Part shown: positions 3,116 to 37,106 of the stretch, piece after piece
Position numbering within the stretch: position 1 is the stretch's first letter
Layout: the number at the start of each line of letters is the position of its first letter
Assembly (NCBI RefSeq): GCF_014696065.1
Contig: NZ_JACJPL010000029.1
Span: forward strand, 1-64,000
DNA: 64,000 bases
Origin: Leptolyngbya sp. FACHB-261
GTDB taxonomy: Bacteria > Cyanobacteriota > Cyanobacteriia > FACHB-261
Reading direction: 5' to 3'
Position numbers and translations under genes: made by a program
Notes under the pieces: generated by a model
Databases searched by the model: none
The model's input: the letters and a program-made list of their open reading frames with translations, nothing else
Told to the model about the DNA's origin: nothing

Positions 3116-3152
3116 GCGTATCTGGTACGCTGCTTACAAGTACCAGATACGC
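3116..3152. repeat. 13-bp perfect inverted repeat
   Basis: GCGTATCTGGTAC (3116-3128) pairs exactly with GTACCAGATACGC (3140-3152) across an 11-base loop. The sequence CCTTGTTTTATAC follows on the + strand, so this could be the 3' terminator of a small transcript. No gene ends just before it. Confidence 0.7.
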
Positions 3153-12729: not shown

Positions 12730-13524
12730 TCAAACCGTTGCTGTTGCGTAGGCTAACCAGGCACGCCAGAAGATGTAAGTCGACATCAAGGCCAACAGGG
12801 TGCGAAAGGAAAAGGTGACCACAGCATCCGATAAGCGGGGTAGCCAACGGATACCAAAGTGAGCACCAAGCATTCCACCTACGCCCAGAATTAGGCCGTC
12901 TGCCCAGAGCACATTGCCGCCCAAGGCATGACCAATACAGGCAGACGAGGCAGCAATAGCCGTGACACCAAGGCTAGTTTGAATCGCAACTTTGATCGGC
13001 TCGCCAAGCAGCAAAATCTGCATTGGCACCAGAACCACGCCCCCACTAACACCCAAAAGACCGGCTAGGAGACCTGCGGTTCCCCCTGTTGTAACAATTG
13101 CAGCGAGGACCCTGGCCCTTCCGCTATTGCTTTTGTCCTTGCTAAGAACCGGATCACCTTGACGGACCAAACGCTTTTTCAAACCAATCAGATAGAAGCT
13201 GCTGGATAGAAGGATTCCATAGCAAATCAGTAGTATATGAGGCGGAAATCGGTTGGCAAGATAGACGCCAAGCTGAGCGGTCACAAGCGCCGACGAACCG
13301 AGGTAGAGCACTTTTCGCAATTTCAGTAGCCCCATCTTCCAGTTTTGCCAGGTTCCAGATAGGGCGACGATAACAATCGCTAAACTACTGGTCGCTGTAG
13401 CCTGTACTGGCTCAGCCCCCATAGTAATTAAGAGAGGGATCATCAAAATCGCCCCGCCAATACCGAAAAGCCCAGCTAACACACCTGACAGGACCCCACC
13501 GACTGGTAGAAGCAACCACTGCAT
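12730..13524 (-). CDS. TauE/SafE-family membrane exporter
   Basis: A 264-residue integral membrane protein with about eight hydrophobic segments and the internal repeat typical of TauE/SafE (DUF81): GVLAGLFGIGGAILMIPLL in the first half and GLLAGLLGVSGGVVLVPMQ in the second. Family members export sulfite or organosulfonates or similar small anions. It closely resembles the protein at 16736-17626 (shared MGLLKL/MGKLQF, KKRLVRQGDP/KRKLVKQGDP and CIGHALGGN/CIGHSLNGN regions), so the two are paralogues. It is convergent with the CheW gene and divergent, across 900 bp, from the dioxygenase gene at 14441. Confidence 0.88.
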   Translation of the reverse strand: MQWLLLPVGGVLSGVLAGLFGIGGAILMIPLLITMGAEPVQATATSSLAIVIVALSGTWQNWKMGLLKLRKVLYLGSSALVTAQLGVYLANRFPPHILLICYGILLSSSFYLIGLKKRLVRQGDPVLSKDKSNSGRARVLAAIVTTGGTAGLLAGLLGVSGGVVLVPMQILLLGEPIKVAIQTSLGVTAIAASSACIGHALGGNVLWADGLILGVGGMLGAHFGIRWLPRLSDAVVTFSFRTLLALMSTYIFWRAWLAYATATV

Positions 13525-14440
13525 ATAATTAACAAGCGCAAACTAAAGCGTTACGCACACTTCTAAGGTCTAAATGCAGCTTTAGAGTAAGCCACAGTCC
13601 ACCCGCTATGCTTCGATAGCTGTCTGTAGACTTAACTTACAGATAAGTTGTGGAAGTCTCAATGTGAGCTTCGAGTCTGAGGCGATTGACTAACGAGGCG
13701 TTGCCAGTCAGTAGTCTAAGCGAAGTATTCTAGCAGTGGCCAACAGGTCACTCTTTACCACCGGTCGAGTCTTTAATCTCATAAGCCTGCACCTTTCAAG
13801 AACTCACAAGCGCAGCGTAATCTGCTACGTCGCATCATAGGTATACCACAATTAAAATGTATGTATCACCTATCACCAAATACTTATTTCTACAAAAAGT
13901 AGGCCTAGAAAACAAAGAGCAGACAGGCCAATTCTACCCGTAGTGCCAGTCGGGGATGTGCTAATTGATACTAGCTATCGCTAGAGACACTAGGAAGTTG
14001 ATCCATCGGTTTGTGCTCTCCGGTTTGTGCCTTCAAGGGTTTAGCGCTTCTCTACAATAAAATGTTTGACTTTCATGATAATACATCTGTAACTTTGTTA
14101 AAGTCCCCATCTCTTCTGACGCTTAGCCCGAGACTTAGGCCAAGACTTACGACTTTTTGAGCTGCAACGCAAGTATAAGGGCAGACTTGACTTATCTAAA
14201 CAAACCCTGTCAAAATTCGTGTTGGCGTCTTAGCAGACTGGTTGTACCATTTGCTGAATTGCGGATAGTTGTGGACAGAGCAGTTGGCTCTTCGAGTGAG
14301 GCTGCGGCTGGTACTTGTGTTCTCATGTGTTCCCTTCTCAACAATAGCCAACAAGCAATTGTTTGCCGGAATTGTTGAACTGCATCGAAAAATTGTCCCC
14401 TACACTACCTAATCTATTTTGAGAGGGAGGAGAAATATTG
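13525..14440. other. 0.9-kb spacer between divergent exporter and dioxygenase genes
   Basis: No credible gene; a 73-codon frame at 14157 has no ribosome-binding site and a cysteine-rich translation. Visible elements are an exact 10-bp direct repeat CGGTTTGTGC (14007-14016 and 14021-14030), an imperfect hairpin around TCTGTA ... TACAGA near 13626, and A/T-rich DNA around 14060-14095 that could hold a promoter. The spacer probably contains control regions for both genes. Confidence 0.5.
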
Positions 14441-15337
14441 ATGGCTGATCTGTCTATTCGTAAGCTGTCGCCAGTGCTCGGCGCAGAGGTTCTTAACGTT
14501 TCGCTTACCGAGCTACTCGACGATTCAACCTTCGAGGCAATTCAAAAAGCCTGGTACGAAAACGTTGCTTTGGTGTTTCGTAACCAGTCTCTTTCAGCTG
14601 CTGACCTGGTTGCTTTTAGCTCCCGGTTTGGCCAACTTGACATCGCTCCCCCTAATGAAAACGGTCGGTGCTTTGTAGAAGGCTTCGAAGAGATCTTGGT
14701 AATTTCTAACGTGGTTGAAAATGGAGTAGCCATTGGTAGCCTCGGCTCCAAGGAGATTCCCTGGCACACTGACATGTCGTATACAGAAGTGCCCCCACTT
14801 GGCATTACTCTCTATGGGTTTGAGGTACCAGCCCCAGACGGTGGCAAAACCGAGTTTGTCAACATGTACCAAGCTTTCGAGACGTTGTCCGACGAATTGA
14901 AGCAGAAGGTTGAAGGACTCAGCATCAAGCATGACAGCAGCATCAATGCTGCCGGTTACCTAAGACTGGGGTCAGATCCAGTCATTGATGTTGTGACTTG
15001 CCCTGGTGCGATTCACCCAATCGTGCGTACTCACCCTGTTACAGGTCGCCAGGTGCTTTACTTGGGTCGTCGACGGAATGCCTACATCTGCGGCTTACCG
15101 GTGCAGGAGAGTGAGGAATTGCTTGACGCCCTTTGGGACCACTGCACTCAGTCTCAGTTGAAATGGCATCACCACTGGCAACCCGGAGATCTGCTCCTCT
15201 GGGACAACTTCTGCACAATTCACCGCCGGGATCAGTTTGATCCTAATAGCCGACGCATCCTGTATCGCACTCAGTTCAGACCCAAGTTGCCTCAGCTTCA
15301 AGAGCGCGCAGCAGAAACTGCTACAGCAGTCAAGTAA
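14441..15337 (+). CDS. TauD/TfdA-family Fe(II)/2-oxoglutarate dioxygenase (paralogue 1)
   Basis: A 298-residue non-haem iron enzyme. The metal facial triad is visible as H109-x-D111 (PWHTDMSY) and H261 (DNFCTIHRRD), and arginine near 272 (NSRR) should bind 2-oxoglutarate. The family hydroxylates or oxidatively cleaves small organic acids, classically taurine; length and motif spacing are normal. The ATG at 14441 is chosen over TTG 14438 because GGAGGAG sits at 14426-14432. It is very similar along its whole length to the enzyme at 19291, with LSIRKLSPxLGAE at both N-termini. It lies between an exporter gene and a hydroxyacid dehydrogenase gene. The substrate is unknown; taurine itself should not be assumed. 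Confidence 0.88.
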   Translation: MADLSIRKLSPVLGAEVLNVSLTELLDDSTFEAIQKAWYENVALVFRNQSLSAADLVAFSSRFGQLDIAPPNENGRCFVEGFEEILVISNVVENGVAIGSLGSKEIPWHTDMSYTEVPPLGITLYGFEVPAPDGGKTEFVNMYQAFETLSDELKQKVEGLSIKHDSSINAAGYLRLGSDPVIDVVTCPGAIHPIVRTHPVTGRQVLYLGRRRNAYICGLPVQESEELLDALWDHCTQSQLKWHHHWQPGDLLLWDNFCTIHRRDQFDPNSRRILYRTQFRPKLPQLQERAAETATAVK

Positions 15338-15379
15338 GCCTGTTACTAATCAATCATCATTAAGCCTGGAGCTTCTGAT

Positions 15380-15425
15380 AGGGCTATAGCTTTTAGGTAG
15401 TGCAATTACTTATAGCTATAGCCCT
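15380..15425 (+). terminator. 12-bp perfect hairpin after dioxygenase 1
   Basis: AGGGCTATAGCT (15380-15391) pairs exactly with AGCTATAGCCCT (15414-15425), loop 22 bases, followed by TGTTTGGGTT. It lies 42 bp after the stop codon of the dioxygenase gene, so it probably ends that transcript. Confidence 0.55.
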
Positions 15426-15540
15426 TGTTTGGGTTAGCGTTAGTCGATACCGAACTGCTAGACCGTTGAGCTAGTAATTTCTAAAGCCCGCTGTACTGAC
15501 CCTCGCGACCTGTTGGTCAAAATAAGGACAATCATATGAA

Positions 15541-15583
15541 TTCGCTGTAGCGAACTGTAGTTTTCCTGATCAAGGAACTGCAG
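15541..15583. repeat. adjacent short hairpins upstream of the dehydrogenase
   Basis: TTCGCT (15541-15546) and AGCGAA (15549-15554) form one palindrome. Directly next to it CTGTAG (15555-15560) and TTCCT (15563-15567) pair with AGGAA (15573-15577) and CTGCAG (15578-15583), with a two-base bulge and one G-U pair. The rest of the 15338-15820 spacer shows no gene. This may be a regulatory leader for the dehydrogenase at 15821, or DNA structure without function. Confidence 0.4.
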
Positions 15584-15820
15584 GTTCACCGGGTACTTCT
15601 GCACTCGTCCAGTTAATTTGGACAGTGGTTATGGAGATGAATAGGAAACGGTGAATAGAGAATCTGTGCGGAGCTTCTTAGTGGGTCCTGCAGTTGTGTG
15701 AGCCGCGTTATTAACAGCCACGGCAAGTGCTATCCAGACGGTACCAATGCCGCCCATTTTTTACACTCACACAAGTCTTGGTAAGATTTTGTAGCTTTTA
15801 GAAAATAGGGGTAAGTTCAA

Positions 15821-16747
15821 TTGACATATTTATGCTTGATTGACAAGAATATCTGCCTATCCGATCAGCATTTAGAGCAACTGCGGGCCTGCGCTGAGGT
15901 CGAGTTCTTAGACATCTCCACGGCAAATGACTCTTTGCTAAAACGGGGGCATCTCCTATTGCTCCACAGCAAATTGCTGCCCGAGCAACTTCGGCTGATG
16001 CAGAACTGTCGTTATATCGGCCTGAGAGCACGCAATTTAGATTATTTGCCTGTTGAGATTGCAGCTGAGATGGGCATAACCATTCGCAATTTACCATCTC
16101 TATCAACCATCGCTGTCGCTGAGCACACCTTTGCCTTGATCTTTGCTCTAGCTAAGAATCTGATTAGATCTCATACCCAAACCGTTGCTGGTCAGTGGCG
16201 CACCAATCTAAGACCAAATTTTGAAATTTGTGGAAAAACTCTGGGGATTATTGGCTACGGAACCATCGGCAAGCAAGTCGAGAAGCTAGGCAACTGCTTG
16301 GGCATGAAAGTCCTCATTGCCACTAAGCCGAATAGTCATGAGCACAGTCAGGAAAACAACAGGTTACCCTTGGAGCACCTGTTACCGCAATCGGATATTG
16401 TTACCCTCCACCTGTCTTCTACTCCTAGCAACAGGAGCTACATTAACCAACACCGACTGTCCCTAATGAAGCCAGGAGCGTTGCTAATCAATACAGCCAG
16501 AGGCTCAGTTTTAGACTACACAGCCTTAGGGGAAGCGCTGAACTCAGGGCATTTGGGCGGTGCTGGACTGGACGTGTACGAGGTAGAGCCAGCCATACCC
16601 GCTCCTTTATTGGAGCTGCCTAATGTAGTCTGTACGCCGCATGTTGCTTATGCAACGGAAGAAGCCTTAGCTGGGAAACACAACATTCTAGTTGAGCAGG
16701 CATTAAGTTACCTGAAGGACCTGACACAAGGTCTTCTAGACTCCTAG
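15821..16747 (+). CDS. D-isomer-specific 2-hydroxyacid dehydrogenase
   Basis: A 308-residue NAD(P)-dependent dehydrogenase. The Rossmann motif GYGTIG lies at 145-150. The catalytic triad of the family is present: R227 (INTARGSV), E256 (DVYEVEP) and H274 (TPHVAY). Such enzymes interconvert 2-oxo acids and D-2-hydroxy acids. The start is TTG 15821: a stop lies three codons upstream in frame and AGGGGTAAG precedes it. Its 3' end overlaps the convergent exporter gene by 12 bp. It sits between two dioxygenase genes and may handle a 2-oxo or 2-hydroxy acid intermediate of the same pathway, which is inferred from position only. Confidence 0.87.
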   Translation: MTYLCLIDKNICLSDQHLEQLRACAEVEFLDISTANDSLLKRGHLLLLHSKLLPEQLRLMQNCRYIGLRARNLDYLPVEIAAEMGITIRNLPSLSTIAVAEHTFALIFALAKNLIRSHTQTVAGQWRTNLRPNFEICGKTLGIIGYGTIGKQVEKLGNCLGMKVLIATKPNSHEHSQENNRLPLEHLLPQSDIVTLHLSSTPSNRSYINQHRLSLMKPGALLINTARGSVLDYTALGEALNSGHLGGAGLDVYEVEPAIPAPLLELPNVVCTPHVAYATEEALAGKHNILVEQALSYLKDLTQGLLDS

Positions 16748-17626
16748 CCAGTAGGCTGACCAAGCCTGCCAGAAAATATAGACTGCGACAAATGAGAGCA
16801 GAGAGCGAAAGATAAAAACGACAGCCGAATCTGGTAATTGAATAAGGTAACGGGTGCCGACCTGAGCTCCCAACAACCCACCCGTACCCAGAGTGATGCC
16901 CTCGATCCAGAGTAGATTACCATTCAAACTATGCCCGATACAGGCAGAAATAGCTGCAAGAACCGTGACACCAAGGCTAGTTTGGATAGAAGCTTTGATC
17001 GTCTCTCCAAGCAACAACATTTGCATCGGCACTAACGCAGCTCCACCGCCTACACCGAGAAAACCGGCTAGTAAGCCCGCAACAGATCCTGTTGCCAATC
17101 TTGCCGACACCAAGCCAAACTTTGAGGAATTGGCAGGAATTGGATCTCCCTGCTTGACCAGCTTTCTTTTCAAGCCAATCGAGTAGATGTTGAAGAGCAT
17201 GAGGAGCCCGAAGCAAAATAGCAACACATAGGATGGAAACCTACTGGCAAAATAGACTCCAATTTGTGCCGTGACAACAGCGGCTAAGCTAAGGTAAAAA
17301 ACCTTATGGAATTGTAGCTTCCCCATCCGCCAATTCTGCCAAGTTCCAGATACAGCTGAGATGAGGATTGCTAGGCTACTAGTAGCTGTTGCTTGAACAG
17401 GTTGAGCCCCTGTAGCAACCAAAATAGGGATCAACAGTAGGGCACCGCCAATCCCTAAAAGGCCTGCAAGGAAGCCCGACAGCAAGCCGCCAATTGAAAG
17501 AAATAACCAAGCTTCCAAGGGCATGGAGGGCAGACTCAGCAGCAGGGAGAGCATCAAGAAAAGCATCACCAGCGCAATGTTGAGCAGGTGTGTTCTCAAC
17601 CCGCTGCCAGCTGATGATTGCCTCAA
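16736..17626 (-). CDS. TauE/SafE-family membrane exporter (paralogue of 12730)
   Basis: A 296-residue membrane protein with the two family repeats, SGFLAGLLGIGGALLLIPIL and GLLAGFLGVGGGAALVPMQ, and about eight to nine membrane helices. It differs from its paralogue mainly by an extra N-terminal hydrophobic helix (LLNIALVMLFLMLSLLLSLP). Its start codon overlaps the stop of the ATP-grasp ligase gene (ATGA at 17623-17626), so the two are probably translated together and the exporter may carry the ligase product. The exported compound is unknown; the family is linked with sulfite and sulfonates. Confidence 0.88.
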   Translation of the reverse strand: MRQSSAGSGLRTHLLNIALVMLFLMLSLLLSLPSMPLEAWLFLSIGGLLSGFLAGLLGIGGALLLIPILVATGAQPVQATATSSLAILISAVSGTWQNWRMGKLQFHKVFYLSLAAVVTAQIGVYFASRFPSYVLLFCFGLLMLFNIYSIGLKRKLVKQGDPIPANSSKFGLVSARLATGSVAGLLAGFLGVGGGAALVPMQMLLLGETIKASIQTSLGVTVLAAISACIGHSLNGNLLWIEGITLGTGGLLGAQVGTRYLIQLPDSAVVFIFRSLLSFVAVYIFWQAWSAYWLGV

Positions 17627-18825
17627 GCCAGCAGCTCCACAATGTGATGAATCGTATCGACGCTGTAGGTGAACAAATAATCCAGTCGATCGGCCAAGAG
17701 ACCCAAAATCAGGTCGTTGTAACTCATGCCGTATTCTTCAAGCCCAATCGACACTAAACTTGTAACCTCATCAGTTGGCCGCTTCAAATCTGGTTTAGGA
17801 TTAGCCTCCAAAACATGGAGGACACCATTGGCATCGGCTCTAATATCAATTCGAATTAGAGACCTCAAACTGAATTCCCAATAGAACCTTTGTGCCAATT
17901 TAATTAAGTTCTGCTTAAGCTCAGCTTCATCGTTGCCAACCAGTCGAGTGCGATTGGAAGTAATCGCCTTTTTATCCATTGAGGTAAAGATGGGTTCATC
18001 AGCCTCAAGAACCCGTTCCAGAGCGGAAAAGGCGAACGGATTCGCGTTCCTTGCCAATCTGCCATTTGCGTAAGTGACGTAGCCACAAACGGCCACACAG
18101 TATTCGCGTCCGGGTAGATAGGTTTCAATGAGAACCGTATTGTGGGTGAGCCGATGCACCTCACTAGCCATGCGCGGTAGATCATGGATCGACTCAACCA
18201 AATGCACATGGAGAGAAGCTCGGCCTGAAACCGGTTTGACCACGAAGGGTCCCTGATAGTCGCCAAAGACAGCTTTGAACTTGGCATCTACACTTGGCCT
18301 CAACAACCCACGAGAGGGGTGCCAAGTAATAAAGGGCGCTGTCTCAATGCCCAGAGCTTGGAGTTCGCGCTTAAAAGTATGCTTGTTATCTAGAATCGAG
18401 ACGTTGAGAGGGTTATGGCCAATGTATGGTATCCCTAACATCTCCAGCATTGCTGGTGTGTGGCAGAGAGGATTGTAACCCTGGACGCCACCTGTATTGA
18501 GCCAAGCTAAATGAATCTCTTGCTCTCTTAAATTCTGAGCAAGAGTCATGTCATCTGGCATCAAAAAGACGTTTTGAAATCCAACTTCTTGAAGGGCTCG
18601 CTGGATATCTTTAGCAACTACTTCATAGCTTTTCCAAGAACGTGGGTTGTGAGTCCTGTGGATAACCGAGCCATCTCGATTCTTGTTGCCACCGTAGATA
18701 ACAGCAATGCGTAGCTTAGATAGAAGAATATCAAGGTAAGGCGGCAGCAGACTAAACTCGTAATGAAAGCAAGGATCTACGAGAGCCTTGATCTCTTGAA
18801 CCTGCGCTACTGTAACCATATCCAT
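17623..18825 (-). CDS. ATP-grasp ligase, D-alanine-D-alanine ligase-like
   Basis: About 400 residues with the ATP-grasp fold: an N-terminal substrate half (LRIAVIYGGNKNRDGSVIH, LAWLNTGGVQGYNP), a central lysine loop (GPFVVKPVSGRASLHVHLVE), and the metal-binding C-terminus (FSLRSLIRIDIRADANGVLH, VLEANPKPDL). The family forms an amide bond between a carboxylate and an amine with ATP. It is longer than typical Ddl (about 300-360) and is not near cell-wall genes, so a role in a small-molecule pathway is more likely than in peptidoglycan. MysD of mycosporine-like amino acid synthesis is one Ddl-like precedent, but no mysABC genes are seen. ATG 18825 is preferred over TTG 18843; ATG 18819 is also possible. 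Confidence 0.82.
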   Translation of the reverse strand: MDMVTVAQVQEIKALVDPCFHYEFSLLPPYLDILLSKLRIAVIYGGNKNRDGSVIHRTHNPRSWKSYEVVAKDIQRALQEVGFQNVFLMPDDMTLAQNLREQEIHLAWLNTGGVQGYNPLCHTPAMLEMLGIPYIGHNPLNVSILDNKHTFKRELQALGIETAPFITWHPSRGLLRPSVDAKFKAVFGDYQGPFVVKPVSGRASLHVHLVESIHDLPRMASEVHRLTHNTVLIETYLPGREYCVAVCGYVTYANGRLARNANPFAFSALERVLEADEPIFTSMDKKAITSNRTRLVGNDEAELKQNLIKLAQRFYWEFSLRSLIRIDIRADANGVLHVLEANPKPDLKRPTDEVTSLVSIGLEEYGMSYNDLILGLLADRLDYLFTYSVDTIHHIVELLA

Positions 18826-19290
18826 TGCCTTAAGCCCTCTCAATGTTTCTCAAGCGACCTCTAAGAAGTGCTGGAGACATCTCATTTGATCCCAATCCCA
18901 AGCATCTTGGAATTGGGCCCTCTATAACCAACTGCATTAATAATGAAAATGCCAGGTGAGGCAATTGAGAAGTCCACAACCCCTTAGCCTAGAAGCTACC
19001 CCACTTTACCTGTACAGAGTTATTGGACTAAAAACCTATGAGTCATTTATGTCCTGCTCAGGTTGGATCTAACCATACCATGTCTGAAAACATATGTATC
19101 GTTGGCCACTGAAATGCTACGTTTACGCCAACAATACTATTTGGGACATAAATTCGTCGTGCCATTGTTTGCATACCATACGTCTATGTGAGAGCGGTCA
19201 CATAGACGTATGGTATTATTCCCCTGGTCAAGCGCCATAACTGATAGTTAGTGGCTAGTCTATCCTTAAAAATGGTGAGGGAAGTCTACT
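18826..19290. other. divergent promoter spacer with long hairpin
   Basis: Separates the divergent ATP-grasp and dioxygenase 2 genes. No open frame is supported. It contains the 19-bp inverted repeat at 19173-19216 and a looser GTTGG ... CCAAC pair around 19095-19125. Both flanking operons probably start here. Confidence 0.5.
19173..19216. repeat. 19-bp perfect inverted repeat, 6-base loop
   Basis: ATACCATACGTCTATGTGA (19173-19191) is the exact reverse complement of TCACATAGACGTATGGTAT (19198-19216). The loop is GAGCGG. It ends 74 bp before the GTG start of dioxygenase 2. No T-run follows on either strand, so a simple terminator is unlikely; an operator, RNA attenuator or small mobile-element remnant are the options. 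Confidence 0.8.
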
Positions 19291-20190
19291 GTGAGCCTAT
19301 CCATTCGCAAGCTATCACCAGCGCTTGGAGCTGAGATTTTTGACATCGATCTCTCTCAACCGCTTAGCGATATTACCGCTAGTGCAATTGAGAAGGCTTG
19401 GTACGAGCACTCGATCTTGCTCTTTCGTAATCAACACTTATCGGATGCTGAGCTGGTAGCCTTCAGCAAGCACTTCGGCGAACTTGATGCCCCACCCATA
19501 GGCACTAGCAACCGCTATTGGGTTGAAGGTTTTCCCGAAGTTCTGGTCGTTTCCAACGTAATTGAGAATGGTGTACCGATTGGCAACTTAGGTGCCAAAG
19601 AGGTTACCTGGCACTCTGATATGTCCTATGAAGAGGTTCCACCGATTGGCAGCATCCTCTATGCCCTTGAAGTGCCACCGGTAGGAGGCAGCACAGAATT
19701 CGTCAATATGTATGCTGCTTTGGAACACCTCCCTAGTGAACTGAGACGCAAGGTAGAGCACCTGAGCATCAAACATGACGGCAGCGTCAACGCTGCAGGG
19801 GATCTACGCTTGGGCAAGCAGCCGGTCACAGATGTTGTCACTTGCCCAGGGCCGATCCATCCGATCGTCCGCACTCACCCCAAGACCGGACGTCAGGCCC
19901 TTTATATTGGCCGTCGTCCCAATGCTTATGTTTGCGGTTTGCCTGTGCCAGAAAGTGAGGAAATCGTCAACGAACTTTGGAGCCGTGCTATCCACCCTGA
20001 CTGGACCTGGCGGCTCGACTGGCAAGTTGGCGACATAGTCTTCTGGGACAACCGTTGCACAATGCACCGCCGCGATCCATTTGATCCCAATAGCCGCAGG
20101 GTTATGCACCGCACCCAGCTTAAGGAGAAGCTGCCTCAGCCCCCAATCGAACTAACACCAGACCGAGTTCTTGAGAGCCAAGCTGTCTAA
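19291..20190 (+). CDS. TauD/TfdA-family Fe(II)/2-oxoglutarate dioxygenase (paralogue 2)
   Basis: A 299-residue paralogue of the enzyme at 14441. It has the same iron ligands, H108-x-D110 (TWHSDMSYEEVPP) and H259 (DNRCTMHRRDPFDPNSRR), with arginine near 270 for 2-oxoglutarate. The start is GTG 19291 with GAGGGA upstream. The two proteins differ most around residues 66-80 (DIAPPNENGRCF against DAPPIGTSNRYW), near the expected active-site lid, which may give different substrates. It is divergent from the ATP-grasp/TauE pair. Two copies at one locus suggest two successive oxidations or two related substrates. Confidence 0.88.
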   Translation: MSLSIRKLSPALGAEIFDIDLSQPLSDITASAIEKAWYEHSILLFRNQHLSDAELVAFSKHFGELDAPPIGTSNRYWVEGFPEVLVVSNVIENGVPIGNLGAKEVTWHSDMSYEEVPPIGSILYALEVPPVGGSTEFVNMYAALEHLPSELRRKVEHLSIKHDGSVNAAGDLRLGKQPVTDVVTCPGPIHPIVRTHPKTGRQALYIGRRPNAYVCGLPVPESEEIVNELWSRAIHPDWTWRLDWQVGDIVFWDNRCTMHRRDPFDPNSRRVMHRTQLKEKLPQPPIELTPDRVLESQAV

Positions 20191-21345: not shown

Positions 21346-21831
21346 CTAGATTTCAGCTCCAGCCTTGGGCTCAGCTCCCATTGGTTCAACGTAGTCTCTG
21401 AAGGTTGTGATCTGCTGTGCGAAATCTAGCGCCTTGATATGGTTCAGCAAATCCTCGGCTTGAGAAGAAAGCTTGTAGTCAGCAGGCATTGGGATGATCG
21501 TACCATTATCCATTCCTTGAGATAGCAAGTACCAAAACAGCAGCTTGGTAGTGGCGCTCATGGAACCATATTCACGACCGATTAGCGTATCAGCTCGGTT
21601 GATCAGATCCCGTTGTACTTGCAGCTGTTCCTCGTGGGACATGCCTTTGACTTGCTCAAATAGAGATTCAGCTACTGAAGTAGAGACAGTGCTTGCACCA
21701 GGAGCAGCTGGCGTAATTGATTTACCCATCTCGGTGTAGATAAACCAAAACAAAGCTAGTTGCTCATCGACCTCTAAATTCTGGAAGGCTTGAGCTTGTT
21801 GTTTAACAGTGTCGTCGCCCGCAAATGTCAT
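21346..21831 (-). CDS. helical carotenoid protein (OCP N-terminal-domain family), copy a
   Basis: A 161-residue all-helical protein equal to the N-terminal domain of orange carotenoid protein without the C-terminal domain. The carotenoid contacts are conserved: W29 and Y32 in ALFWFIYTEMG (OCP W41 and Y44) and W100 in LLFWYLLSQ (OCP W110). HCPs bind a ketocarotenoid and, depending on clade, quench singlet oxygen or phycobilisome excitation. ATG 21831 is chosen over TTG 21843 because of GAGG at the right spacing. No OCP or C-terminal-domain homologue is near. A second HCP gene lies directly upstream on the same strand. Confidence 0.9.
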   Translation of the reverse strand: MTFAGDDTVKQQAQAFQNLEVDEQLALFWFIYTEMGKSITPAAPGASTVSTSVAESLFEQVKGMSHEEQLQVQRDLINRADTLIGREYGSMSATTKLLFWYLLSQGMDNGTIIPMPADYKLSSQAEDLLNHIKALDFAQQITTFRDYVEPMGAEPKAGAEI

Positions 21832-21867
21832 TTGGAACCTCAAACGATATTAACAATTGAAATTTAA

Positions 21868-21945: not shown

Positions 21946-22452
21946 TCATAAAGGCTGAGAGGGCTGCGGATCTATGAGTTTAGATACAGCCTGAGGGTCA
22001 CTTCCCATCGACACTACAGCATCCCGCAAAGCTTGGATTTGCAAACCGTAGTCTAAACTCTGGATTGCAGCCATCAAGTTTTGAGCTTCCGGTTTAAGCT
22101 TATAGTTATCAGGGAAGGCAATAAGTTTTCCCTGATCAATTTCTTGAGCAAGATGGTGCCAAAAGGTTAACTTGGTATTTGCACTTAACGCACCATATTC
22201 CCGACTAATTGGTGTATCAACACGGCCGACGATCTCACGCTGTGCTTCCAATTGCTGAGCTTCTGGCATTTGGCGGATTTGCTCAATCAGCCCATCGGCA
22301 ACTTCGGGTGAGGCTACGCTGGGAGAAGACGGGTGAACAGGACCTCTGACTTGAGTATAAATAAACCACAATAGAGCAAGCTGAGTATCAACATCCAACT
22401 GTTGAAATGCCTCTACAGCTCGGGCTGAGCTATCAATCTTTTCAGATGCCAT
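21946..22452 (-). CDS. helical carotenoid protein (OCP N-terminal-domain family), copy b
   Basis: A 168-residue paralogue of copy a, with W29 and Y32 in ALLWFIYTQVRG and W98 in LTFWHHLAQ as the carotenoid contacts. The start at 22452 (MASEKIDSS) is chosen by homology to copy a; the longer open frame from 22623 adds an unrelated extension. It differs from copy a in the inter-helix loop around residues 36-50 and has a longer Ser/Pro C-terminal tail. The two copies probably belong to different HCP clades with different quenching roles; that needs a tree. Confidence 0.88.
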   Translation of the reverse strand: MASEKIDSSARAVEAFQQLDVDTQLALLWFIYTQVRGPVHPSSPSVASPEVADGLIEQIRQMPEAQQLEAQREIVGRVDTPISREYGALSANTKLTFWHHLAQEIDQGKLIAFPDNYKLKPEAQNLMAAIQSLDYGLQIQALRDAVVSMGSDPQAVSKLIDPQPSQPL

Positions 22453-22680
22453 AAAAAGCTCAAAACCGTCTATGTTTAGTATTCCCAAAAGGTTAGCAGA
22501 TCTCAATATGATTTCAACCTGCTTTAGAAGGCTCATTGAACCTAACTGTAGATAGAGGCAGTTTTTATTCAGGTCAGGCAGGGTGAAGGGTGATGCAGAA
22601 ATTTTCCCTTCAGCAGGAATCATTCAAAGGGATAGGTTGCAACTTTGTAACCTTGATCTCAACGAGGCAATCTACATTTC

Positions 22681-27077: not shown

Positions 27078-27995
27078 CTAGCGCTTTTGTGAGCGCGGAT
27101 CAAGGGCATCGCGCAGGCCGTCTCCCACCAGGTTAAAACCCAGCACAGTCAGCATAATCGCTCCGCCGGGAAAGATCAGAGTCCAGGGGGCCTGCTGTAT
27201 AAATTGGCGGGAATCCGCTAGCATCTTGCCCCACTCTGGCGTAGGTGGCTGGGCTCCCAGTCCTAAAAAGCCCAGAGCCGCCGCTTCTAAAATCGACGTG
27301 GCAACGCTGAGACTGCCCTGCACCAAAATCGGCGCCAAAGTATTGGGTAGGATGTGAGCGAACAAAATTCCGGCATCGCCCATACCAATTGATCGTGCCG
27401 CCTGCACGTAGACTTCTTCGCGCACCCGCAATACCTGGCCGCGCACCAAACGCCCGAACGTAGGCACGTTGATAATCGCAATCGCCGCCAGAGCATTTTG
27501 CAGCGATGGTCCTAGTGCAGAAACCACAGCAATTGCCAGCAGCACACTGGGAAACGCCAGCAGAATATCGAATACCCGCGAAATAATCAGGTCAGCCCAA
27601 CCGCCGTAGTAAGCCGCCACAGATCCCAATAGGGTACCTAGCGCTGAGGCCCCCAACACCGCAAAGACCCCGACTTGCAACGATACCCGCGATCCATAGA
27701 CCACGCGACTGAAGGTATCTCGGCCCAAGTCATCGGTGCCAAACCAGTGCCGGCTATTGGGTGGCGAAAGGCGGTTGGCCAGATCGGTAGTCTCGTAACC
27801 GTAGGGGGCAATGGGCGGTGCAAATAGAGCGATCAGAATGAACAGCAGAAGGATTAGCCCACCAACAACCGCAATTGGATTGCGTAGCAGCGTCTGTAGT
27901 GCCTTGCGGCTGGGCGATAGGGGAATAATGGGGAGAGCGACGCCCTGCTGCGCACCCTGCGGCGGATTATCAGCAGGCTGAACTTCTTGGGTCAT
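27078..27995 (-). CDS. oligopeptide/dipeptide-type ABC transporter permease (DppC/OppC-like)
   Basis: A 305-residue inner-membrane permease with about six helices, an N-terminal OppC-type segment (LRNPIAVVGGLILLLFILIA) and the family signature HWFGTDDLGRDTFSRVVYGSR. The ATPase-contacting EAA loop lies around RSIGMGDAGILFAHILPN. It pairs with the DppB-like permease four bases upstream on the same strand. Substrate could be peptides, nickel or glutathione; it cannot be read from sequence alone. Confidence 0.88.
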   Translation of the reverse strand: MTQEVQPADNPPQGAQQGVALPIIPLSPSRKALQTLLRNPIAVVGGLILLLFILIALFAPPIAPYGYETTDLANRLSPPNSRHWFGTDDLGRDTFSRVVYGSRVSLQVGVFAVLGASALGTLLGSVAAYYGGWADLIISRVFDILLAFPSVLLAIAVVSALGPSLQNALAAIAIINVPTFGRLVRGQVLRVREEVYVQAARSIGMGDAGILFAHILPNTLAPILVQGSLSVATSILEAAALGFLGLGAQPPTPEWGKMLADSRQFIQQAPWTLIFPGGAIMLTVLGFNLVGDGLRDALDPRSQKR

Positions 27996-27999
27996 GGCC

Positions 28000-29004
28000 T
28001 CAGCGGTAGCGAATGCGCGGGTCTATGAAAGCATAAAACAGGTCAACCAGAAGGTTCACCACAACGAAAATGATCGCCAGTACCAGCACACCGGATTGGA
28101 TCACAGGAAAGTCGCGGAAGCTTATGGCGTCGTAGATGTAGCGCCCAACTCCTGGCCAGCCAAATACGGTCTCGGTTAGCACCGCTCCCCCTAACAGGAA
28201 ACCAAACTGCAAGCCGATCACCGTCCACACGGGAATAAAGGCGTTTTTCAAGGCATGCAAGTAGATCACCTTGAAGGGCGGCAAGCCTTTGGCGCGGGCT
28301 GTGCGCACGTAATCTAGCTTCAGCACCTCCAACATGCTGGAGCGGGTCATGCGGGCAATGATTGCCATCGGGATGGTGCCTAAGGCAATTCCCGGCAGAA
28401 CCAGATGGGCGACCACATCGCCAAACTGCCAGAACTGGCCTTGCACCAAGGTATCGATCAGATAGAAGCCAGTGATTGATTCGACTGGATAGCGCGGGTT
28501 AGTGCGACCTGAAGAGGGGAGCCAACCTAGAGTTTGCGCAAATAGCCACTGCTCCAGCAGCCCTAGCCAGAACACCGGCATCGAAACGCCTATCAAGGCT
28601 CCCACCGTTGAAGCATAGTCGGCTACAGAATTCTGCTTCCACGCGGCCAAAATGCCAATATTGATCCCGACCACCACGGCGATGATCATGGCGACCGAAG
28701 TTAGCTCTGCCGTAGCGCTGAGGTAGGGCAAAATCTCACGAGAGATTGCCGTGCGCGTACGCAGGGAGGTGCCTAGGTCTCCCTGAAGCAGGCTACCAAC
28801 GTAGTCAAAATACTGCACCAGCAGTGGGCGATTGAGGCCATACTGCTCGCGAAAATTTTCGATTGTAGTCTCAGAAGCCTGCTGGCCAAGAATCACCTGG
28901 GCCGGATCGCCGGGGATCAGATGAATGAGCAGGAATACAACGATCGATAGGCCAATCAGCACAGGAATGAGCTGAACAAGGCGCTGGAGGGTATATCTCA
29001 GCAC
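28000..29004 (-). CDS. oligopeptide/dipeptide-type ABC transporter permease (DppB/OppB-like)
   Basis: A 334-residue permease with the DppB N-terminus (LRYTLQRLVQLIPVLIGLSI, LIPGDPAQVILGQQAS) and the EAA-type loop DYVRTARAKGLPPFKVIYLH. It forms the channel with the DppC-like protein directly downstream. The binding-protein gene lies 545 bp upstream on the same strand. No ATPase genes (DppD/F) are in this cluster. Confidence 0.88.
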   Translation of the reverse strand: MLRYTLQRLVQLIPVLIGLSIVVFLLIHLIPGDPAQVILGQQASETTIENFREQYGLNRPLLVQYFDYVGSLLQGDLGTSLRTRTAISREILPYLSATAELTSVAMIIAVVVGINIGILAAWKQNSVADYASTVGALIGVSMPVFWLGLLEQWLFAQTLGWLPSSGRTNPRYPVESITGFYLIDTLVQGQFWQFGDVVAHLVLPGIALGTIPMAIIARMTRSSMLEVLKLDYVRTARAKGLPPFKVIYLHALKNAFIPVWTVIGLQFGFLLGGAVLTETVFGWPGVGRYIYDAISFRDFPVIQSGVLVLAIIFVVVNLLVDLFYAFIDPRIRYR

Positions 29005-29032
29005 GGCTGATTCTAGGGGGATAAGCAGTCAA

Positions 29033-29071
29033 ACTGAACTTGGGCACTGAACTTGGGCACTGAACTTGGGC
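29033..29071. repeat. 13-bp tandem repeat, three exact copies
   Basis: ACTGAACTTGGGC is present at 29033-29045, 29046-29058 and 29059-29071, followed by a truncated copy. It lies about 30 bp upstream of the DppB-like permease start. Confidence 0.9.
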
Positions 29072-29381
29072 ATGGTCTCACTGCTGACTGAGAAAGCTTA
29101 AGCTCAGAGGCTCAGCCACTAGTAGGGCATGCTATAGGTCACGAGCCCCAGCAGTTTTAAGGTAATGAGTACCTAAGTTAAGCACTGGCTAAGCTGGGCA
29201 CTGGCAGTCTTCGCGTTTGGTCTTATCTGTTGCAGAGTCGTTGGAGAGTTTGGTTTAGCAGCGAATCGACTTGAGGCTTATCGTAACGGCTGTTATTGTT
29301 GCCCAGATCATTGCTTACCGCTAATATTTTGCCCTCCAACCCCAGGCATCCTCAAAGTAGTACGTTAGTGCAAACAGAAAG

Positions 29382-29437
29382 CCCTACAGTGCTAGCGTCG
29401 CTTTTCTAGCAAGGGTCAATACGTCAACCCTGTAGGG
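29382..29437. other. nested inverted repeat, possible multi-branch RNA
   Basis: CCCTACAG (29382-29389) pairs with CTGTAGGG (29430-29437). Inside are GCTAG ... CTAGC (about 29391-29410) and AGGGT ... ACCCT partly overlapping the outer stem. On either strand it could fold into a branched structure in the mRNA between binding protein and permease genes. It could be a differential-expression stem; this is inference. Confidence 0.4.
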
Positions 29438-29549
29438 ACAATCTAGCTTTTAGAGCAATAAGCTCTGGCTGTAGTTGAGACTGTAGTTGAGATTGTATTT
29501 CAGGCTAAGGACACTCAGGCGGATGCTCAAGCTAAAGACTTAGGGAAGC

Positions 29550-31235
29550 TTAACTGGACGTCGTGACCTCGGCCATTGATTCCGTACCGGCCACTGGGCT
29601 GGGTTTAAAGTTTTCCACAGTCTTGCGGCTGGCCATTAGAGGCGTGGAATGGACCAACGGCACTACTGGCAAGTCTTGGTGGATAACCGCCTGTGCCTGC
29701 TTGTAGAGGTCATTACGCTTGGTCTCGTCTGCCGTAGTCTGAGCTTCGTCCAGCAGTTTATTGACCTGCGCGTTGTTGTAACGGCTGTAGTTGTTGCCAG
29801 GAATGTTGGCACCGTTGAGCAACACGTTCAGGAAGTTAGAGGCGTCGCCGTAGTCACCCGTCCAACCGATCAAACCGACCGGATAGTCACCCGTCCGCAT
29901 CTTTTCAAGGTAGGTGGCCCACTCGTAACTGATGATGTTGGTCTGAACTCCGATCTTGGCAAGATCGGCCTGAATCGCCTCAGCAATCTTGCGACCATCC
30001 GGCATGTATGGGCGAGGCACAGGCATGGCTAGAAAATCAGTCTTAAAGCCATTGGGGAGACCGGCCTCAGTTAAAAGCTTCTTAGCCGCGTCTGGATCAT
30101 AAGCGTAGTCCTGCACATCCTGGTTGTAGCTGGGCAACGAAGGGGCGTTCAGGTTAACCGCTGGAATGGCGTTGCCACCGTAGAAGGCATCAATCAGGGC
30201 TTGCTTGTTGACTGCATGCGCCAAAGCCTGCCGCACTTTCGGGTTGTCGAAAGGCTTCTTGGTATTGTTCATGGCGATGTAGCCCACATTGAAGCTCGGG
30301 CGCTTCAGCAATTCCAAATTGTTGTCACTGCTCACCTGACTGACGGCATCAGGATCGAGGTCATCCATCAGATCGATCTCACCGCTCTTGAGGGCGGTCA
30401 GACGAGTGGCGTTTTCAGGAATGGCTCGGAAGATCACCCGTTGGGCTTTGGGCTCTTCTGGATTCCAGTAGTCTGGGTTGCGCTCTAGGGTCACGCTCTC
30501 ATTGCGCTTCCATTCCACCAGTTTGAAGGGACCGGTACCGGTAGGATTTTCGTTGAGCTTATCGGCAAACTTCTCAATCGCAGCGGGTGAATTGAAAGCG
30601 AAAGGCGGCAACACCAGGCAGGCGATGAAGGGCGCGAACGGTTTCGACAGCTTAAATTCAACTGTGTTGGGATCGACGGCGGTAACAGACTGAATTAAAT
30701 CAGTGCCGAACACATCGTTGAAGTAGCTGAAGCTTTCGTTCTTACCACCAGACTGCCAGCGTTTGAAGTTGGTGGTCACAGCATCGGCATTGAAATCAGT
30801 GCCGTCCGTGAACTTGACCCCCTGCCGCAGCTTAAAGGTGTAGGTTGTCGCATCCGGGCTGGCTTGCCAAGACTCTGCCAGTTTGGGAATAACGTTGGTG
30901 GTGCCATCTTCGAGGTCCACCAAGCCTTCTAAAATGTTGCGCGTCACTCGGAAAGCCTCACCATCCGTAGCAACTGCCGGGTCGAGCGTGGGGGAATCCC
31001 CGCCTCTGCCAAACACTACTACGGCTTGAGGCGCATTGCCAGGACTGTTGCCGCCGCCTTGCTCAGCGGTCGTGTTACTTGCGGGTGGCGGCTGACAGGC
31101 GGCTAGACCGACAACCATTAACAGGGACGCAAAAAACAGCAGCAGCCAACGCCACAATCGACGCGAGCTAAACGCCAACTCAAGCTCCAATGTATGCACC
31201 AAATTAATGAAATCTCGAGGTCTTAGGGAACGCAT
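29550..31235 (-). CDS. ABC transporter substrate-binding lipoprotein, family 5
   Basis: A 561-residue periplasmic solute-binding protein of the DppA/OppA family. After a basic N-terminus and a hydrophobic segment, LLMVVGLAAC gives a lipobox. The family 5 landmarks follow: DSPTLDPAVATDGEAFRVTR, LAESWQASPDATTYTFKLRQ, GTGPFKLVEWKRNESVTLER and VRQALAHAVNKQALIDAFY. It delivers its ligand to the two permeases downstream. The N-terminus is about 25 residues longer than usual before the hydrophobic core, so a later GTG start near 31199 is possible. Confidence 0.88.
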   Translation of the reverse strand: MRSLRPRDFINLVHTLELELAFSSRRLWRWLLLFFASLLMVVGLAACQPPPASNTTAEQGGGNSPGNAPQAVVVFGRGGDSPTLDPAVATDGEAFRVTRNILEGLVDLEDGTTNVIPKLAESWQASPDATTYTFKLRQGVKFTDGTDFNADAVTTNFKRWQSGGKNESFSYFNDVFGTDLIQSVTAVDPNTVEFKLSKPFAPFIACLVLPPFAFNSPAAIEKFADKLNENPTGTGPFKLVEWKRNESVTLERNPDYWNPEEPKAQRVIFRAIPENATRLTALKSGEIDLMDDLDPDAVSQVSSDNNLELLKRPSFNVGYIAMNNTKKPFDNPKVRQALAHAVNKQALIDAFYGGNAIPAVNLNAPSLPSYNQDVQDYAYDPDAAKKLLTEAGLPNGFKTDFLAMPVPRPYMPDGRKIAEAIQADLAKIGVQTNIISYEWATYLEKMRTGDYPVGLIGWTGDYGDASNFLNVLLNGANIPGNNYSRYNNAQVNKLLDEAQTTADETKRNDLYKQAQAVIHQDLPVVPLVHSTPLMASRKTVENFKPSPVAGTESMAEVTTSS

Positions 31236-36236: not shown

Positions 36237-37106
36237 ATGTCTGAATCTTATAAACCACAGCCTCTAACGCCACTTGATCCAACAGTGGATGTAACTCAAA
36301 ATCACTATTGGAGTTACCACAACATTGAGGCGCTACTGAGCTGCAAAAAACCACTCACCGCATCTCAAGACGAGGACCTATTCATCGCCGTTCACCAGAT
36401 TTGTGAACTCGGGTTTCATCAGATGATTCTTGATTTGGATCGAGTTCTAGAAGCGATTGCAACTGCCTTTACCGATCCTCAAGACCCGATCATCGGCGAT
36501 ACCCGTGAGGCGTGCTATTTTTTCAAACGCGTTTTCCGGCTCTACGAAGTAGTCGTAATGACCATGCCCATTCTCACTACCATGCGGGCCTTCATCGAGT
36601 TTCGCAGCACCATTGGTCCAACCAGTGGCTTTCAATCTTTTCAGTTCCGCCAATTGGAAGTTATGAGCGGCGTAGCTAAGTCCTATTGGACGGGCGGCAC
36701 TAACGACGACGAGGGCAAACCTCACGTTGCTGAGACTGAATTCGACCGGCGCTACGGAGCTGAAGTCGCAGCCTGGTTTGAGCGCTACCACAAGCACAGC
36801 CTGGCGTTTTACTACCAAACTCTGCTCAGTCGGGCACCGGGTGAATCCACCGCAGAGCGCATCGCTTATTTGCAGACTCACACTCAGGCCAGTGCGCTGC
36901 TCAAGTCGATGCGAAGCTACGAGGAACTACAAAACCGATTTCATCAAGCGCATCTCGGTTTAGCAGTTCAGCAGTTGGAGATGGTCGGTGTTCAGATTGG
37001 CACTGGCGGCACATCTTTCCGTGACTACCTAGTCAAATACGGCAAGGAAGTTGCACCCCTCTTTCCTGGCCTCACTTCTAAAGGCGCTTCTAGTTTAGAA
37101 ACCTGA
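36237..37106 (+). CDS. tryptophan 2,3-dioxygenase-superfamily haem enzyme
   Basis: 289 residues with the fold markers of tryptophan 2,3-dioxygenase: YHNIEALLSCKKPLTASQDE, H53 in FIAVHQICELGF (the catalytic-base histidine of TDO), and GTGGTSF at 255-261 (TDO GTGGSSG). However ELWF is ELGF, and the proximal haem-ligand His, normally nine residues before the Gly of IG, is L242; H239 and H236 are near by. The superfamily also contains haem-dependent oxygenases of natural-product pathways (MarE, SfmD, LmbB2 type), so the substrate may not be tryptophan. It is divergent from a MetX-like hydrolase, and its 3' end overlaps a convergent small gene by 12 bp. Confidence 0.78.
   Translation: MSESYKPQPLTPLDPTVDVTQNHYWSYHNIEALLSCKKPLTASQDEDLFIAVHQICELGFHQMILDLDRVLEAIATAFTDPQDPIIGDTREACYFFKRVFRLYEVVVMTMPILTTMRAFIEFRSTIGPTSGFQSFQFRQLEVMSGVAKSYWTGGTNDDEGKPHVAETEFDRRYGAEVAAWFERYHKHSLAFYYQTLLSRAPGESTAERIAYLQTHTQASALLKSMRSYEELQNRFHQAHLGLAVQQLEMVGVQIGTGGTSFRDYLVKYGKEVAPLFPGLTSKGASSLET

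Follow-up and report, generated by a model that had tools for sequence, protein, structure and literature searches.

A TauE/TauD, Ddl-like ligase and dehydrogenase locus in Leptolyngbya sp. FACHB-261: a possible composite of a duplicated dioxygenase/exporter block and an amide-ligase/exporter pair

The 64,000-nucleotide stretch of Leptolyngbya sp. FACHB-261 analysed here (hereafter the window; positions 1-64000 of contig C29, from a cyanobacterial assembly totalling 6.95 Mb) carries a group of six genes (Table 1). They encode two Fe(II)/2-oxoglutarate (2OG) dioxygenases (TauD1 and TauD2), two TauE/SafE-family exporters (TauE1 and TauE2), an ATP-grasp ligase resembling D-alanine–D-alanine ligase (Ddl), and a D-2-hydroxyacid dehydrogenase. 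We give about an even chance to the reading that this locus is composite, with two modules joined in this lineage: a dioxygenase/exporter block and a pair consisting of an amide ligase and its exporter. Nearly everywhere it occurs, the ligase has a linked exporter gene, in this locus TauE2, so the ligase–TauE2 pair is the best-supported functional unit, which would form an amide and then export it. For the TauE/TauD blocks, the best reading, by analogy, is a module apart that oxidises anions; in its simplest form, it would cleave the C–S bond of a sulfonate and export the sulfite.

First, the ligase is, as judged from its sequence and predicted structure, a distinct Ddl-like amide ligase. Its model (predicted local distance difference test, pLDDT, 88) matches the Ddl fold with Z about 29 to DdlA and DdlB and superposes on Ddl structures at 2.4–2.9 Å over about 300 residues. 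The DdlB catalytic residues K97, K144, E180, E187, R255, D257, E270 and N272 fall on invariant columns of the ligase alignment, and with fold and ATP-grasp residues shared, the acyl-phosphate mechanism of Ddl (PF07478/TIGR01205) is to be expected. What separates the family from Ddl, apart from an identity of 21–26% and its linkage to transporters, is the pocket: the E15 loop, GSSVG and SPGMTSxS are replaced family-wide by an inserted loop, GRAS and NPKPDLKRP. The family has invariant motifs of its own, KPxxGRxS and ExNPxPDL, and the window ligase, 42–67% identical to its relatives, carries all invariant columns of a 37-member alignment. In the tree, it falls outside a well-supported clade of other cyanobacterial, mostly EamA-linked enzymes and shares an unresolved fork with sequences from Chloroflexota.

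The shared fold, together with best database matches that are all Ddl, could be taken to mean that the enzyme is a D-alanine–D-alanine ligase paralogue serving a cell wall precursor. We consider this extremely unlikely, as the protein reaches 68.5 bits against TIGR01205 (67.6 in the genome search), where the cut-off is 245.65, the same genome encodes a separate, canonical Ddl on another contig (C31:596522, 378 bits), and GRAS and NPKPDLKRP stand in place of the pocket motifs throughout the family. On these three grounds, a housekeeping Ddl was rejected. Considering the canonical Ddl elsewhere and the missing substrate-pocket motifs, it is likewise unlikely that the ligase makes D-Ala-D-Ala only, an outcome that an earlier, sequence-only reading of this DNA had named as contrary to its proposal of a single oxidise–ligate–export pathway.

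Second, the context of the ligase family is dominated by transporter genes. Homologues are found in 14 of 386 cyanobacterial genomes, one of them the host of the window, as well as on Vibrio plasmids and in no fewer than 535 GTDB contig stretches, of which the best-scoring 80 were analysed for their neighbourhoods. In total, 93 ligase-homologue neighbourhoods were examined, reaching 8 to 10 kb at most, so that partners encoded farther away would escape notice, and the counts describe related loci rather than independent events. In 14 of the 17 cyanobacterial loci of the best-80 set, the gene immediately upstream, in the same orientation, encodes an EamA protein, and the 240 kb of these loci contain only one other EamA match, a fragment at one locus. 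Another set of 13 cyanobacterial genomes, partially overlapping in lineage, yielded nine EamA partners and one partner of the major facilitator superfamily (MFS). As the EamA-linked loci come from several lineages and have differing flanks, the association does not reduce to simple shared synteny. Outside the cyanobacteria, an MFS gene sits directly downstream of the ligase, usually with an ABC_sub_bind gene next in line, in 59 of 62 loci drawn from alphaproteobacteria, other Pseudomonadota, Chloroflexota, Spirochaetota, Bacillota and Campylobacterota. These MFS partners are about 730–810 amino acids long (e.g., L062:9152-11581 and L119:9135-11330). The N-terminal 416 residues model as two membrane-anchored sensor modules (pLDDT 78), the second resembling Cache/PAS-type sensors (DctB, CitA, WalK) at Z about 10, a middling match that gains support from numerous members of a single fold class; as modelled, the partner looks like a sensor–transporter fusion. 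Some ligase loci additionally have Cache-guanylate/adenylate cyclases, a GGDEF-EAL protein or histidine kinases nearby. We found no description of this ligase–transporter family in the literature searched (ATP-grasp with EamA, T6SS/MFS, Cache/MFS, exporters), where T6SS denotes the type VI secretion system, and regard it as a distinct, widespread and uncharacterised Ddl-fold family with strong transporter context. The earlier idea that the ligase works with an exporter is strongly supported by these neighbourhoods.

On four Vibrio plasmids (L017, L018, L019, L183), the ligase–MFS–ABC_sub_bind run is embedded in T6SS clusters, between tssH and FHA-domain/tssJ genes, an unexplained link of a small-molecule ligase with a secretion system.

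The window ligase likewise has a same-strand transporter gene directly adjacent to it, TauE2, located downstream. Neither EamA nor Cache-MFS with ABC_sub_bind is found alongside, and the host genome holds no close EamA partner elsewhere (best match, 28% identity). The two genes would be co-transcribed, with TauE2 filling the exporter slot that EamA or MFS proteins occupy in other genomes. The ligase stop and the TTG start of TauE2 overlap as TTGA (17623-17626), with GGAG 8 nt upstream, which renders the previously suggested translational coupling plausible, not proven. The overlap itself is real; the part in doubt is the start codon, since other cyanobacterial TauE proteins align mostly from residue 35–42 of TauE2, so that translation may truly begin at ATG 17524, leaving a gap of about 100 nt after the ligase stop.

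Third, the exporters and the two dioxygenases suggest a separate module with a history of its own. TauD1 and TauD2 are 62% identical and TauE1 and TauE2 60%, and both pairs have the same divergent order, TauE on the minus and TauD on the plus strand. This equal divergence and identical gene order suggest that the TauE/TauD block was duplicated together, in one event. A ligase remnant was sought between TauE1 and TauD1 (13525..14437), and none was recognisable. By sequence, the dioxygenases belong to a proteobacterial-type TauD clade. TauD2 has no relatives at E ≤ 1e-60 in other cyanobacteria (386 genomes), and the best cyanobacterial matches of TauD1 reach 32–37% identity. Among non-cyanobacterial relatives, which were sought on plasmid records only, the nearest found are encoded on Azospirillum plasmids (52–54% identity), followed by Variovorax and another Comamonadaceae (47–48%). 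In a tree with several long branches, whose exact order is unsure, TauD1 and TauD2 cluster with these Azospirillum and Comamonadaceae proteins, apart from other cyanobacterial TauDs. Five proteobacterial neighbourhoods were examined. On the Azospirillum plasmids (L035-L037), the dioxygenase lies in a conserved block beside a four-domain rhodanese and an NMT1-type binding protein, in some cases also with a cysteine-dioxygenase-like gene, and the rhodanese/NMT1/TauD block resembles a unit for organosulfur utilisation, as yet uncharacterised. The Variovorax relative neighbours an enolase-superfamily gene and a TctC (tricarboxylate-type) binding protein. Both contexts are of the uptake type, and the one in Azospirillum is sulfur-related.

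The pockets of the two dioxygenases point away from taurine. Both proteins are 32–33% identical to E. coli TauD and conserve the equivalents of its Fe triad (H99, D101, H255), its 2OG-binding R266 and its anion-binding R270, whereas H70, Y73, N95, S158, F159 and F206, which we take to be its taurine contacts, are all altered, and no tauABC genes lie beside TauD1 or TauD2. They score 166.6 and 174.7 bits, respectively, against a TauD equivalog cut-off of 313 (PRK09553). Taurine was rejected as their substrate because of the changed pocket residues. The GRR motif that the TauD1/TauD2 subgroup carries at the F206 position would instead suit a more acidic substrate. The best PDB sequence match of both proteins is the (R)-phenoxypropionate dioxygenase RdpA (PDB 6d1o; E 2.5e-43 and 2.5e-45); the overall similarity is low, no herbicide-degradation genes surround the locus, and the substrate is not transferable.

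Both exporters score far above the PF01925 gathering score of 32.6 bits. TauE loci occur in 37 of 194 cyanobacterial genomes at E ≤ 1e-30, and at 29 other such loci, neither TauD, nor the ligase, nor the same dehydrogenase was found within ~1.5 kb; none of the 29 adjoins a ligase, unlike TauE2. A search for TauE2 homologues on plasmids gave no match. The dehydrogenase is an ordinary member of its family and has an NAD-binding domain and the catalytic Arg/Glu/His set, with NTARGSV, DVYEVEP and TPHVAY motifs read in its sequence. It reaches no substrate-specific equivalog (best NCBIfam match, 188 bits of the 448 needed), and in 194 cyanobacterial genomes searched at E ≤ 1e-45, no relative exceeds 40% identity. 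Its gene and that of TauE2 are convergent and overlap by 12 nt.

In principle, the ligase, the dehydrogenase and the TauE/TauD block could be unrelated genes placed side by side by chance, with a ligase–TauE2 overlap that is functionally meaningless. The commonness of TauE in cyanobacteria, a dehydrogenase without a close cyanobacterial relative and the possible TauE2 start 100 nt past the ligase stop all fit this explanation. We nevertheless judge it unlikely, given that the ligase family adjoins a transporter almost everywhere and a same-strand transporter follows here too, and that a duplicated divergent TauE/TauD pair speaks against randomness.

In the composite reading, to which we return, the first module is the duplicated divergent TauE/TauD block. 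TauD1 and TauD2 would hydroxylate a small anion that the cell either scavenges or produces itself. The attack would most likely be adjacent to a sulfonate, with C–S cleavage and release of sulfite, and TauE would export the sulfite or the anionic product. In the second module, the Ddl-fold ligase would activate a carboxylate as an acyl phosphate and couple this to an amine; TauE2 would export the resulting small amide or dipeptide-like compound. The dehydrogenase probably reduces a 2-oxo acid, e.g., a glyoxylate-type product of the first module, or else is a bystander; glyoxylate arising from, for example, sulfoacetate would, as a conjecture, be a natural substrate for a D-2-hydroxyacid dehydrogenase. 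Several observations weigh against this picture. The modules are interleaved, the ligase being flanked by TauE2 and TauD2, and this layout could reflect a single function. TauE2, for its part, may work for TauD2 and not for the ligase. The Variovorax TauDs keep company with tricarboxylate-type and enolase-superfamily genes and not with sulfur genes, leaving sulfite release uncertain. Only the two identity values and the order of the genes speak for the block duplication, and all the substrates, the release of sulfite, the export through TauE2, the co-transcription and any co-regulation are inferences.

The sequence-only reading had united all six genes in one pathway. Spelt out gene by gene, the dehydrogenase would make or interconvert a hydroxy or oxo acid, the dioxygenases oxidise it, the ligase add an amine and TauE export the product. 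We consider this rather unlikely. It can appeal to a tight, interleaved cluster set between unrelated flanks (genes for a CheW-domain protein to the left and a DUF3611 protein to the right), with two divergent control regions, both of them real, and the ligase–TauE2 overlap. The genes nonetheless do not travel together. TauE is found in 0 of the 93 ligase neighbourhoods, TauD matches in two and the dehydrogenase in one, all at 28–36% identity and kilobases away, so that no ligase homologue in these neighbourhoods is ever directly beside TauD, TauE or the dehydrogenase; the 29 cyanobacterial TauE loci are, within ~1.5 kb, equally devoid of the other partners, and the nearest TauD relatives reside in unrelated neighbourhoods. 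The co-occurrence check that had been suggested, now extending over 93 ligase, 29 TauE and 5 proteobacterial TauD loci, found the six-gene set nowhere else, so that by the yardstick of the sequence-only reading itself, under which homologues that never occur together would refute it, the pathway claim fails within the range sampled. Because the nearest genomes available for comparison are related to the host only at class level, this absence is weak evidence, and a lineage-specific pathway is possible.

Known systems offer partial parallels to each of the two modules. Bacilysin clusters encode BacD, an ATP-grasp L-amino acid (dipeptide) ligase, with the exporter BacE adjacent. The window resembles them in that a ligase gene lies beside an exporter gene and amide-bond formation would be expected, and differs in having no warhead-biosynthesis genes at the locus. 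The L-amino acid ligase BL00235 gives only a short, weak profile match to the window ligase (E=5.8e-5), which is closer to Ddl. Mycosporine-type MysD was also considered; none of mysA, mysB or mysC was seen among the neighbours, with no homology test aimed at MysD. For the first module, the scheme is reminiscent of the sulfo-ASDO pathway, in which the dioxygenase SqoD releases sulfite, a reductase follows and the sulfite is excreted (PMC12890257). The likeness would extend to Fe/2OG-dependent C–S cleavage, a reductase and outward passage of sulfite; unlike in that pathway, no sulfoquinovose genes are seen near the locus.

Beyond this locus, the ligase family spans cyanobacteria, proteobacteria, chloroflexi, spirochaetes, clostridia and campylobacterota, is almost always transporter-linked and often lies near sensors, a context that suggests an exported small molecule not yet recognised, which may be a signal. 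An elaboration of this idea, which we offer as quite improbable speculation, is that the family makes a secreted amide or dipeptide-like signal. The operon found in most phyla would then combine synthesis by the ATP-grasp enzyme, export by the Cache-MFS protein and periplasmic capture by ABC_sub_bind, the output running through cyclases, GGDEF-EAL proteins, histidine kinases or T6SS encoded close by. Cyanobacteria would retain a stripped synthesis-and-export version, in which the window has swapped the exporter for TauE. The window makes a useful test case, because it pairs a conserved ligase with a transporter from a different family.

Turning to the layout of the locus, all six open reading frames are intact and match their named Pfam families far above the cut-offs, and the genes and pairwise similarities described in the sequence-only reading are all in place. 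The guanine–cytosine content of the cluster genes (47–53%) is close to that of the window (51%).

Table 1. Features of the locus, in window coordinates (aa, amino acids)
Feature	Position	Strand	Basis
TauE1, TauE/SafE-family exporter, 264 aa	12730..13524	-	PF01925 E=6.5e-45, 154.1 bits
TauE1/TauD1 divergent intergenic region, 913 bp	13525..14437	.	direct reading
TauD1, Fe(II)/2OG dioxygenase, 299 aa, ATG at 14441 likely	14438..15337	+	PF02668 E=1.5e-65, 222 bits
Imperfect hairpin 3' of TauD1, 12-bp arms	15380..15425	.	hairpin search
D-2-hydroxyacid dehydrogenase, 308 aa, TTG start	15821..16747	+	PF02826 (2-Hacid_dh_C) E=3.9e-53, 180 bits
TauE2, TauE/SafE-family exporter, ≤296 aa, start TTG 17626 or ATG 17524	16736..17626	-	PF01925 E=1.1e-40, 140.2 bits
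Ddl-like ATP-grasp ligase, ≤406 aa, likely start ATG 18825 or 18819	17623..18843	-	PF07478 (Dala_Dala_lig_C) E=2e-14, 54 bits
Ligase/TauD2 divergent intergenic region, 447 bp	18844..19290	.	direct reading
44-bp hairpin, 19-bp perfect arms, 6-nt loop, 74 bp upstream of TauD2	19173..19216	.	hairpin search
TauD2, Fe(II)/2OG dioxygenase, 299 aa, GTG start	19291..20190	+	PF02668 E=1.3e-68, 232 bits

The 44-bp hairpin upstream of TauD2 is the longest perfect hairpin within the window and is a candidate operator or leader hairpin; other copies were sought in the genome at up to two mismatches, and none was found. A further perfect hairpin, with 13-bp arms, lies at 3116-3152 between a Rieske-domain gene and a response-regulator gene. 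Near the right flank of the cluster are two genes for orange-carotenoid-protein N-terminal-domain (helical carotenoid) proteins (21346-21843 and 21946-22623). The gene at 36237-37106 encodes a protein that shows a partial match to the tryptophan 2,3-dioxygenase domain. Elsewhere in the window, a family 5 binding protein (29550-31235) is part of a group of dipeptide-type ABC transporter genes (27078-31235), in which the two genes beside it are taken, from their sequences, as probable permeases; this transporter is a possible peptide uptake route.

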